Source: Verrucomicrobiota bacterium
Lineage (GTDB): Bacteria > Verrucomicrobiota > Verrucomicrobiia > Chthoniobacterales > Terrimicrobiaceae
DNA length: 33,436 nt
Direction: 5' to 3'
Assembly: GCA_026398275.1 (NCBI GenBank)
Contig: JAPLTF010000039.1
Coordinates: 1-33,436, forward strand
The position numbers and the translations under genes are program-made. The notes beneath the pieces are model-generated. The model was not told where the DNA came from. It worked only from the letters and a program-made list of their open reading frames with translations, and searched no databases. Positions within the stretch are counted from its first letter, which is position 1. Every line of letters begins with the position of its first letter. Below are positions 908-10,985 of the stretch, piece after piece.

Positions 908-1240
908 GGGTTTTCCCCTACTACAGAATCGTCCTCCTGCCGAGGCCATTCAGTGTTGACAGTAAATGCGTGAGCGTGCTCTTGATCTGAGTTTGATGGG
1001 GGTCTTTAGGGGTCAAGCCATTTCCTGTTGATATTTATTGGAAGCGGAGGCGTCGGCTCCATCTGGTCGTTGGGATTCACGGACGACACGGCGGTCGTCC
1101 CTCCAGTGGGCAATCTTCGCCCTTCCCGTCTCGTCGATGAGAAGTCAGGCCGCCAAGGGGCGGGAAATCTATGCCTCCCGGCCACTCGACTGTGAGCCCG
1201 TTCGTCCGGCCCCAACAGTCAACAAAGGCAGCCTGAGGGG
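908..1240. other. Spacer without a supported gene, carries one repeat
   Basis: No frame in this 333-nt stretch has a convincing protein. It holds one copy of a hairpin repeat (1081-1105). Next to it, at 1041-1062, is GGAGGCGTCGGCTCC-type sequence that may be a decayed relative. The promoter of the antitoxin at 907 should lie here, but I could not pick a clear -35/-10 pair. Confidence 0.5.
1081..1105 (-). repeat. 25-nt hairpin repeat, copy 1
   Basis: On the minus strand this reads TGGAG, stem GGACGAC, loop CGCCGT, stem GTCGTCC. The 7-bp stem is perfect. The same architecture with different stem letters occurs at 9263-9287 and, inverted, at 9310-9334. The stem differences are compensatory, so the pairing itself appears to be kept. 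This copy lies in non-coding sequence. Confidence 0.75.
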
Positions 1241-8662: not shown

Positions 8663-10348
8663 ATGCCAGCCCGTCTGTCAAAGCTCCCTTTGCTCGAAAT
8701 CGCGATTTTCTGCATCGCGATTTTTTTGCGCGTCTGGCTGATCGAGATCAAGCCGCCGCATTTTGACGAGGGGGTGAACGGGTGGTTTGCCGATCAGATG
8801 ACGGCGAATGGCTACTACCATTACGATCCCACAAACTATCACGGGCCACTGCATTTTTACGCGGTCTTCCTCTCGCAGACACTGTTCGGGCGGCATCTTT
8901 GGGCGCTCCGCCTGCCGGCGATCGTCGCAAGCCTCCTGTGCATCTGGGCGATCCTGCGGTTCAGGGAATTCTTCGGGGCCCGGACCGCCCGGCTCGCGGC
9001 GCTCGCCATGGCGGTCTCGCCGGCGTATGTTTTTTACGGGCGGTATTCCATCCACGAGTCCTGGCAGGCGCTTTTCTCGATCCTGCTTTTGTGGGGCGTT
9101 CTCGGCCTTTGGAAATCCGGGGGGCGCAGGTATTTTTTCACATCGGTCCTTTCCGCAGCCGGCCTGGTCCTGACGAAGGAGACCTACCTGATCCACCTCG
9201 GCTGCTTCGCGTTTGCAGGCGGAGTTCTCTGGGCCTGGCAACATGTGCTCCCGTCGATCCCCTGGAGGGATGGCCTCCGTGCCATCCCATGTTTTGAATC
9301 GGGGAAGTCGGCGCTGACGGAGCAGCGCCCTCCAGATTTTGCGGCGGAGCCTTGTGCTCAAACGGGCGGGACGCCCGTTCCCCCTGTGCGAAGCAATGTT
9401 CGCAAAGGCACCCCGATCGCCGCACAGCTCTGGACCCGCGACGACGCGATCCTCGGAGTCGGGATCTCGGCCCTCCTCATTGTCTTTTTCTACTCGGGAA
9501 ATTTTCTCGATTTCGCTTCCTTGAAGGGGCTCTACCAAACATTCGGCGCTTGGTTCCAAACCGGAGTCCAGGCGGCCGGGCACGAGAAGACATACTACCA
9601 GATCGGGCCGGCGAAGTTTCCGCTGAACTACTATTGGGGATTTCTCATGGCTCACTACGAGTGGCCGGCACTGGCCGGGTTGGCCGCGTGCCTTCGCTAC
9701 GTCGCGCCATCGGACCCCCGCCTGCGCTATACCGCCATCATGGCGGGAGGCGTGCTGATCGCCTATTCGATCATCCCCTACAAAACCCCTTGGTGCATCA
9801 TCTCGATCATCTGGCCGTTCTACCTCATTCTGGGCGCGCTGCTCGGCGAGTGGGCCGAACTCTTTAAAAAGCGGATCCTGCCATGGCTCGTCATGGCCCC
9901 GCTGCTCGCCGCCTCCCTGGTGTTCTGCTGGCGGCTGAACTTTCAAAAGTTTGCCGACGACAAGGAACCCTACGTCTACGTCCAGACGTTTCCGGAAATT
10001 TTTCAATTCACCGGCCCGCTGCTTGCGATGGCCACGAAAGACCCCGGCAACTACCACATGAGCGGGCTGATCCTTCTCGACAGCTACTATCCACTGCCCT
10101 GGATGCTCGGGGACTTCACCCGGGTGGGATACTACGGAAAAGATCAGCTCCCGTCGGATTGGAACGCCGGGTTTATCGCCGTGGAAAAGGCGCGCGAACC
10201 GGAGGTCGAAAAGCACCTCGGCCAGGCCTACTTCAAGCGGAACTTCAAACTCCGGAGTGCGCAGGAGGAATGCACCGCGTATTTCTCCGCTGCGGATTTT
10301 TCGGATTTCTTCGGCGGCACGCCCGAGTTCCAACCGGCCGCGCGCTGA
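8663..10348 (+). CDS. Agl23-like GT-C family membrane glycosyltransferase, 561 aa
   Basis: A polytopic inner-membrane protein similar to the flippase-associated Agl23 family (TIGR03663) and GT39-type mannosyltransferases. After the first membrane span comes a luminal loop with Asp35-Glu36 in PPHFDEGVNGWFAD, the usual GT-C catalytic acid position. Next come TNYHGPLHFYAVFLSQTLFG and YGRYSIHESWQALFS, and later ISIIWPFYLILGALL. Roughly ten hydrophobic spans are visible, with a soluble tail after about residue 430. Members probably move sugars from polyprenyl-phosphate donors outside the cytoplasm. Residues about 200-248 (GLRAIPCFESGK through VRKGTPIA) are encoded by a block of DNA hairpins inserted in frame between two spans. 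That part is atypical for the family and is probably an extramembrane loop. The start is chosen at the first ATG before the first span; it has no Shine-Dalgarno site. Confidence 0.82.
   Translation: MPARLSKLPLLEIAIFCIAIFLRVWLIEIKPPHFDEGVNGWFADQMTANGYYHYDPTNYHGPLHFYAVFLSQTLFGRHLWALRLPAIVASLLCIWAILRFREFFGARTARLAALAMAVSPAYVFYGRYSIHESWQALFSILLLWGVLGLWKSGGRRYFFTSVLSAAGLVLTKETYLIHLGCFAFAGGVLWAWQHVLPSIPWRDGLRAIPCFESGKSALTEQRPPDFAAEPCAQTGGTPVPPVRSNVRKGTPIAAQLWTRDDAILGVGISALLIVFFYSGNFLDFASLKGLYQTFGAWFQTGVQAAGHEKTYYQIGPAKFPLNYYWGFLMAHYEWPALAGLAACLRYVAPSDPRLRYTAIMAGGVLIAYSIIPYKTPWCIISIIWPFYLILGALLGEWAELFKKRILPWLVMAPLLAASLVFCWRLNFQKFADDKEPYVYVQTFPEIFQFTGPLLAMATKDPGNYHMSGLILLDSYYPLPWMLGDFTRVGYYGKDQLPSDWNAGFIAVEKAREPEVEKHLGQAYFKRNFKLRSAQEECTAYFSAADFSDFFGGTPEFQPAAR
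9263..9287 (+). repeat. 25-nt hairpin repeat, copy 2 (inside a CDS)
   Basis: TGGAG, stem GGATGGC, loop CTCCGT, stem GCCATCC. The pairing is perfect over 7 bp. Compared with copy 1 at 1081-1105, two base pairs differ and both are compensated (C-G to T-A and A-T to G-C). It is translated as part of the Agl23-like protein. Confidence 0.8.
9310..9334 (-). repeat. 25-nt hairpin repeat, copy 3 (inverted, inside a CDS)
   Basis: On the minus strand: TGGAG, stem GGCGCTG, loop CTCCGT, stem CAGCGCC. It has the same flank and loop as copy 2 but a largely different, fully paired stem. It lies 22 nt from copy 2 in opposite orientation. Confidence 0.8.
9361..9379. repeat. GC-rich palindrome (AACGGGCG-GGA-CGCCCGTT)
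   Basis: Perfect 8-bp stem with a 3-nt loop, third hairpin of the in-frame block. It encodes TGGTPVPP, a peptide I associate with repeat-derived reading frames in Verrucomicrobiota; that association is from memory and not tested here. Confidence 0.7.
9387..9404. repeat. Small hairpin TGCGAA-6-TTCGCA
   Basis: A perfect 6-bp stem with loop GCAATG, the fourth hairpin of the block at 9263-9404. It starts 7 nt after the preceding palindrome. Confidence 0.55.
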
Positions 10349-10363: not shown

Positions 10364-10753
10364 TCAGGGAGTCGGAAATGCAATCACCATCAAGCCGGGA
10401 ATGTCATCAAAATGCTTGTCGGCGGTCATCACGGGCACTCCCGCCCGCAGCGCACACGCCGCGATGAGGATGTCCGGCCCGGGAATGATCAATCCTCGAC
10501 GGTCGAGTTCCCAGCCAAGCTCGGCCGCCTGTTCCCACAGATTGTTGTCTGTTGGGACATTGCAGAGCACGTTGAAAAACGCAGCCATGGCATCACGCTC
10601 GCGGGGATTCTTCATCCCCCGCAGGACCTCAAGCCGCACCATGCCGCAGGTGTAGATGTCCTCAAACCGGCTGCCGAGCCACAGGGACGAATCCTCCCGG
10701 CGGCGAGTCAACGCGATGAAAACATTGCTGTCAACGAGCGCCGCGCTTGCCAT
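10364..10753 (-). CDS. vapC: PIN-domain ribonuclease toxin, VapC type, 129 aa
   Basis: PIN-domain toxin that cleaves RNA, commonly initiator tRNA or a rRNA loop, with Mg2+. The four acidic positions are visible: Asp8 (AALVDSNVFIAL), Glu42 (VRLEVLRG), Asp94 (GPDILIAACAL) and Asp112 (VMTADKHFDD). Length is typical. The start at 10753 is chosen over the upstream ATG at 10813 because the PIN fold begins there. It overlaps the vapB reading frame by 23 nt, so the pair is translationally coupled. All catalytic residues are intact, so the toxin should be active. Confidence 0.9.
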   Translation of the reverse strand: MASAALVDSNVFIALTRRREDSSLWLGSRFEDIYTCGMVRLEVLRGMKNPRERDAMAAFFNVLCNVPTDNNLWEQAAELGWELDRRGLIIPGPDILIAACALRAGVPVMTADKHFDDIPGLMVIAFPTP

Positions 10754-10985
10754 ATTTTTTTGGGATTTCGGCGACGCGGAGCGCCATGACGTCGTAATCG
10801 GGATCAAACGCATTTCCCAATTCCTCGGGCGTCAACCCAAGCCCGTTCTTGAAATACTCCTTGAGCCTGTGCTTCCTGTCCATCTCCCTCAACGCCATCT
10901 CGACCGCCTCTGTCTTGCTCGCGAAGCCATGTGCGGCGATCACCCGGTCGAGCAATTCCTCGTCAATGTGCATCGTCATCTTCAT
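10731..10985 (-). CDS. vapB: VapB-family antitoxin, 84 aa
   Basis: This begins MKMTMHIDEELLDRVIAAHG, a ribbon-helix-helix N-terminus. SKTEAVEMALREM follows, the signature of the VapB antitoxins paired with PIN toxins, and a charged C-terminal half that should wrap the toxin. Start at 10985; the frame is open far upstream but only as a shadow of the divergent membrane-protein gene. The start codon abuts a perfect 8-bp inverted repeat (10985-11003), the probable binding site for the VapBC complex. The toxin gene follows with a 23-nt overlap. Confidence 0.9.
   Translation of the reverse strand: MKMTMHIDEELLDRVIAAHGFASKTEAVEMALREMDRKHRLKEYFKNGLGLTPEELGNAFDPDYDVMALRVAEIPKKYGKRGAR

Follow-up and report, generated by a model that had tools for sequence, protein, structure and literature searches.

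The window, i.e., the whole 33,436-nt stretch of a Verrucomicrobiota contig that was analysed, carries a gene for an Agl23-type GT-C glycosyltransferase with a block of hairpins inside its reading frame (Table 1). The encoded protein was assigned by an NCBIfam profile search to TIGR03663 (Agl23; 126.3 bits, cut-off 126.25), possesses a Pfam PMT_2 domain and is predicted to adopt a GT-C fold, with ArnT (5ezm) as the closest structure (E 2e-7), and matches to it are present in 87 of 97 related genomes. Its AlphaFold2 model (mean pLDDT 83) is confident except at two positions, i.e., residues 198-249, where pLDDT drops below 50 and which represent the insert, and a seven-residue loop at 303-309. 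Adjoining the gene on the minus strand (10364-10813) is a short ORF which, on sequence only, reads like a PIN-domain (VapC-type) toxin.

Table 1. Features of the hairpin block, its host gene and related loci. Plain coordinates are window positions; entries marked G000 lie elsewhere in the same genome.
Feature	Position	Strand	Description or evidence
Agl23-type GT-C glycosyltransferase gene, host of the insert	8663..10348	+	open frame, 561 codons/aa
In-frame composite insert, 144 nt, 48 codons, residues 201-248	9263..9406	+	no such block in same-genus orthologues; pLDDT below 50 at 198-249
Family A element (hairpins 1 and 2), REPIN-like, 72 nt	9263..9334	+	inverted pair TGGAGGG...CCCTCCA
Hairpin 1	9267..9288	+	8-bp perfect stem, 6-nt loop
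Hairpin 2	9310..9329	+	7-bp perfect stem; reverse complement resembles hairpin 1
Family B palindrome, half of an inverted pair	9360..9386	+	AAACGGGCGGGACGCCCGTTCCCCCTG; core GGGCGGGACGCCC has copies in the genome
Hairpin 3 stem	9361..9379		8-bp perfect stem, 3-nt loop
Hairpin 4, diverged flank of long-form B element	9387..9404	+	6-bp perfect stem; 83% match elsewhere
Weak partial copy of a 62-nt family A relative	1039..1105	-	28 bits, E 0.0024; between called ORFs
Complete RAYT in frame in LeuRS (L154)	G000:C51:27878-31117
RAYT-type domains in frame in AlaRS, SAM methyltransferase, DNA methylase (L155, L156, L157)	G000 C32, C31, C37		own flanking palindromes

A sequence-only reading of this DNA had described the block as 142 nt of four perfect stem-loops lying in a stop-free Agl23-like frame and adding about 47 residues of low-complexity, Gly/Pro/Thr-rich sequence. 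The four perfect stems (8, 7, 8 and 6 bp) and the absence of a stop throughout the frame are borne out, while the insert measures 144 nt, with boundaries that are uncertain by a few nt. It comprises 48 codons, and low complexity was overstated, as Gly, Pro and Thr account for 14 of the 48 residues. The single strand of the block folds better than all of 200 dinucleotide shuffles (z -3.08). A Rfam search of the window returned tRNA only, with no known structured RNA at the block, and searches of the host protein against Pfam and NCBIfam returned enzyme models only, with no splicing or intron family among them. A phage origin was rejected, no match being found among phage records.

The site without the insert was read from a codon-level alignment with seven relatives and from a 26-row protein alignment. 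The block is missing in all 25 aligned orthologues (39-76% identical) and in 24 of these leaves a clean gap, as the same reading had anticipated; in the most distant one (39%), a short run of unrelated sequence occupies this position. In the orthologues of two same-genus genomes, G001 and G003 (71-82% identical), exactly residues 201-248 are missing, and the equivalents of residues 1-200 and 249-560 abut with zero bases between them. A target-site duplication was sought, and none is resolvable because the orthologues diverge within the loop. The insert itself is seen in one assembly only (4.66 Mb, 117 contigs, 3.84% contamination).

In agreement with its proposed position between two membrane spans, the insert is bracketed by predicted transmembrane helices at residues 175-195 and 259-277, which in the predicted model are the sixth and seventh of a fold whose N-terminus is inside and whose DE-motif loop is outside. 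The further proposal of an external loop is not upheld: the loop is probably cytoplasmic, given the helix count on this N-in GT-C model and the basic residues of the equivalent loop in the orthologues (R-P...RQ.WTRDD). Two Agl23 relatives of family f5 (L271 and L272, in genomes G045 and G082) possess ~100 additional residues at the same loop, which represent more hydrophobic spans and not repeats.

Pieces of the block returned 46 matches in the window's own genome, and the block is made up of parts of two families. Family A is 70-79 nt in length and has the arrangement TGGAGGG-stem-spacer-stem-CCCTCCA, with related arms in inverted orientation; among aligned copies the arms are conserved and the middle spacer varies in both sequence and length. 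A covariance model identified 12 copies in the genome at 74 bits or above. Family A thus shows the related inverted palindromes, variable spacer and dispersal of a REPIN, and the window holds a full A pair. Whether its sequence is 'coding-ready' by design was also considered and rejected, since 4.5 of its six frames are open against 4.35 expected from composition. A 62-nt subfamily akin to family A, TGGAGGGACGACCGCCGTGTCGTCCC...GGACCGGACAGCGCCGGTCCCTCCA (L081-L098), is spread over many contigs, and no ORF of at least 100 aa spans its weak partial copy in the window. Many contigs of genome G003 have A-like repeats no more than a few hundred bases from their start, and these repeats probably break that assembly.

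Family B is defined by the core GGGCGGGACGCCC, of which the genome contains 57 exact copies, compared to none for the reversed control. Elsewhere in the genome it often occurs as an inverted pair; the window's unit is a half-element, which makes direct transposition of that piece alone conjectural. The hairpin 4 region (query bases 103-156) matches three other loci at 83% and corresponds to the outer flank of long-form B copies. Neither family carries the GTAG or CGTC tag at the palindrome end, the ends being TGGAGGG in A and CAGGGGG in B. Judged from these sequence matches, the block is a complete family A pair set against half of a family B pair, and the possibility of a single four-hairpin element was rejected, its parts occurring separately elsewhere in the genome. 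At a further locus (L253, G000:C30:21500-30500), a 1414-aa open frame joins DinB-like and DnaE-like polymerases with a B palindrome at the junction, which may represent neighbouring genes read in frame or a fusion.

The distribution of these repeats relative to genes was surveyed in the genome stretches around them, and the flanks of 52 A/B clusters were scored by codon log-odds, with a table trained on the genome itself. Under a strict test, eight of the 52 are in frame within coding sequence, and no cluster shifts the same-strand frame of a gene that contains it; the chance of eight out of eight in frame, if random, is ~1.5e-4, although some clusters share a gene, which makes the effective n smaller and this probability larger. 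As 24 clusters are without a coding flank by this measure, extragenic copies are at least as common, and there is therefore no sign of a targeting of coding sequence, the in-frame copies being survivors. Reading frames and Pfam matches place repeat-encoded peptides, in frame, in two hybrid histidine kinases with two repeats apiece, in NuoL, in a tandem ArsA, and in a ClpA/ClpC-type AAA+ protein, a glycosyltransferase and an exported protein; the last four hosts were recognised by inspection, in addition to the strict test. The B pair in NuoL of the window's genome has no counterpart in same-genus genomes G002 and G003, whose NuoL lacks ~36 residues there; the ArsA proteins of G001 and G027 are likewise shorter. 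At locus L163 (G000:C36:64500-74000), two neighbouring hybrid histidine kinases have an A repeat in frame between the HATPase_c and receiver domains, and each has a B-type repeat peptide in its HATPase_c region.

The same genome returned nine matches to Y1_Tnp, four of which are located in frame in long proteins, i.e., LeuRS (1080 aa), AlaRS (1135 aa), a methyltransferase (637 aa) and a DNA methylase (810 aa). The domain embedded in LeuRS corresponds to NF047646, 'REP-associated tyrosine transposase' (81.9 bits, cut-off 80), and B palindromes form an inverted pair around this RAYT, CAGGGGGCACGGGCGTCCCGCCCGTG...CACGGGCGGGACGCCCGTGCCTCCTG, and are close to the window's AAACGGGCGGGACGCCCGTTCCCCCTG. 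Family B thus has a candidate cognate RAYT flanked by the same repeat, whereas no family A repeat was found within ~1.5 kb of any of the nine Y1_Tnp genes. The RAYT interrupts LeuRS between the end of the editing domain and the next catalytic part, where the best solved LeuRS structure (1h3n) has ~10 residues. LeuRS is without a RAYT in same-genus genomes G002 and G003 and with one in G001, G007 and G010, and over its full length the fusion is 62-63% identical to proteins of Haloferula and of a Verrucomicrobiaceae genome. Pfam and NCBIfam searches of LeuRS and similar proteins returned host and transposase/REP-Tyr models only, with no splicing (Hint) domain flanking the RAYT. A predicted structure of the 1080-aa protein, based on nine sequences, has a mean pLDDT of 46, and no claim is therefore made regarding the packing of the two domains.

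When used as a query, the LeuRS RAYT was found to match 95 of 213 genomes of the order. Among the best 112 listed matches, 71 fall within frames of 400 aa or more that are free of stops, and 39 within frames no longer than 320 aa; as a random open run at the window's G+C averages 31 codons, the long RAYT-bearing frames represent host genes. Curated models identify the hosts as ValRS, LeuRS, AlaRS, CarB, ClpB, IspG, PriA, HsdR and a menaquinone biosynthesis enzyme. The isolate Haloferula rosea KCTC 22201 has a RAYT at the same site in LeuRS, and other carriers belong to the Planctomycetota (AlaRS), Akkermansiaceae (IspG) and Kiritimatiellales (PriA), with RAYTs in methylase-like proteins of Desulfobacteraceae and Thiodictyon; embedded RAYTs thus occur in several phyla, partly at recurrent sites. 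Two further RAYT-bearing frames were also observed: a 717-aa open frame in G002 (L168, G002:C330) contains two near-identical tandem RAYTs and repeated SGSAGVPPA...SGQDARAP peptides, for which palindromes code, and a 786-aa open frame of an Akkermansiaceae contig (L283, CAISTY010000024.1) holds a RAYT and consists mostly of tandem HGLEQDAPATFTP and ADSGSC repeats.

Across all 47 RAYT sequences compared, none of which contains a stop, neither the two HUH histidines nor the catalytic Tyr varies. This Tyr is that of the motif EYI..NP and corresponds to the position known for the E. coli RAYT; the Tyr of WQEEYFD was rejected as the catalytic residue, as it varies (20/47). Maximum-likelihood phylogeny clusters the RAYTs according to their host gene (16 changes compared to 31.1 in shuffles, with none of 200 shuffles as low), and the tree requires at least two entries into LeuRS, most simply four, and at least two into CarB. 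Recurrent use of one site together with long retention, through targeting or tolerance, fits these sequence data best. On balance, we lean towards the view that this RAYT clade is an in-frame passenger of essential proteins, in which the RAYT together with its palindromes and their derivatives would be translated within host enzymes at recurrent sites (LeuRS, CarB, ValRS and others), with its catalytic residues intact; it would represent a protein-embedded transposon that is sheltered by the essentiality of its host and follows an intein-like life-style without splicing.

With regard to the glycosyltransferase, the block is very probably a nested stack of elements from two dispersed, non-autonomous repeat families of REP/REPIN type, which inserted in the Agl23 linker, with family B spread in trans by a RAYT and selection keeping the in-frame landings. 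A complete A inverted pair and an adjacent half B pair would have landed in the linker that joins transmembrane helices six and seven; with a length that is a multiple of three and a stop-free frame, the gene would survive and the hairpins would be read as 48 extra residues, which are probably disordered and without function in a cytoplasmic loop. Family B would most likely have been spread by an HUH-Tyr single-strand transposase, and we infer this to be the LeuRS-embedded RAYT; no transposase to go with family A was found. Purifying selection would then spare only those insertions that keep the frame in tolerant linkers.

That the extra loop instead confers a new function on the glycosyltransferase, and was selected for it, would be in keeping with an insert that stays open and in frame and whose basic residues recall those of the orthologues' loop. 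Such an adaptive domain is nevertheless very improbable, as only one of 26 aligned genomes has the insert, which is predicted to be disordered and whose sequence is made up of repeats that are also found elsewhere, both within and between genes. Strong hairpins are generally known to stall ribosomes, or to cause them to skip, in a few systems, and the block might accordingly be absent from the mature protein through bypassing, RNA processing or intein-like splicing; yet there is no stop or frameshift that would demand its removal, none of the Rfam, Pfam and NCBIfam searches matched a splicing or intron family, and many in-frame copies exist in differing contexts, which makes removal or skipping after transcription extremely unlikely.

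The fragmented, metagenome-type nature of the assembly, and the frequent occurrence of similar repeats at contig ends in G003, could point to a repeat-driven misjoin or binning error that placed the hairpins in the gene. A misjoin would not, however, leave both flanks matching a single orthologue without loss of a residue or of frame, and NuoL and LeuRS repeat this picture, so that an artefact is hardly plausible.

RAYTs are usually single-copy and are said to be domesticated, and the embedded RAYTs bear on how these genes persist: a clean loss from LeuRS or CarB needs frame-exact excision, so that the host enzyme would shelter the transposase. They are also of relevance to how aminoacyl-tRNA synthetases and other essential enzymes are annotated. 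In the open-access literature searched, no description of RAYTs in frame in host genes was found, an absence that is weak evidence for their novelty. A large survey of TnpA-Y1 proteins set aside a few 'unexpectedly long' proteins, regarding them as fused genes or faulty annotations (PMC6006769), which may explain why embedded RAYTs went undescribed, and a study of RAYT-REP recognition does not use the terms 'intragenic', 'in frame' or 'within gene' (PMC8266576).

Among known systems, inteins and homing endonuclease genes resemble the LeuRS-type RAYT in that essential enzymes carry a nuclease-like domain in frame, at sites that recur; in contrast to inteins, the LeuRS-type insert is without a splicing domain and is an HUH-Tyr transposase that apparently stays in the mature enzyme. 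Rickettsia palindromic elements (RPEs), to which the sequence-only reading had likened the block, are palindromic mobile DNA that is translated in frame as part of host proteins, and the window insert is likewise a repeat-derived, in-frame insert in a coding gene that is missing from orthologues. This likeness holds in mode only; the block is a composite of two unrelated dispersed families. As far as is known, RPEs differ in lineage and sequence, and we know of no link between them and a RAYT. The insert indicates that REP-type repeats lengthen proteins outside Rickettsia as well, and do so traceably, with empty sites in close relatives.

According to passages of Di Nocera et al. 2013 (PMC3733652), intragenic REPs are present in many genomes, most of all in Opitutus terrae and Rickettsia conorii, the verrucomicrobial O. 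terrae being the genome richest in intragenic GTAG REPs; dimers and groups encode 20-30 residues and larger clusters 43-82 (overall 20-82). These elements resemble the present ones in that REP singlets, dimers and clusters lie in frame in ORFs, and differ in belonging to GTAG or CGTC families; a transposase gene within the host ORF is not stated in those passages (PMC3733652). With the REP/REPIN (BIME) elements and their RAYT/TnpA-REP proteins, the repeats described here share short dispersed palindromes, often in inverted pairs with a variable spacer, and Y1 HUH transposases flanked by B palindromes. They differ in that TGGA (A) or CAGGGGG (B) takes the place of the GTAG/CGTC tag by the stem, that a notable share is intragenic and that the transposase itself lies in frame in host proteins. 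REP/REPIN elements are thus the nearest documented relatives in kind of the window insert, which is a variant of the published in-frame REP/RPE inserts that is untagged and stacks two families.
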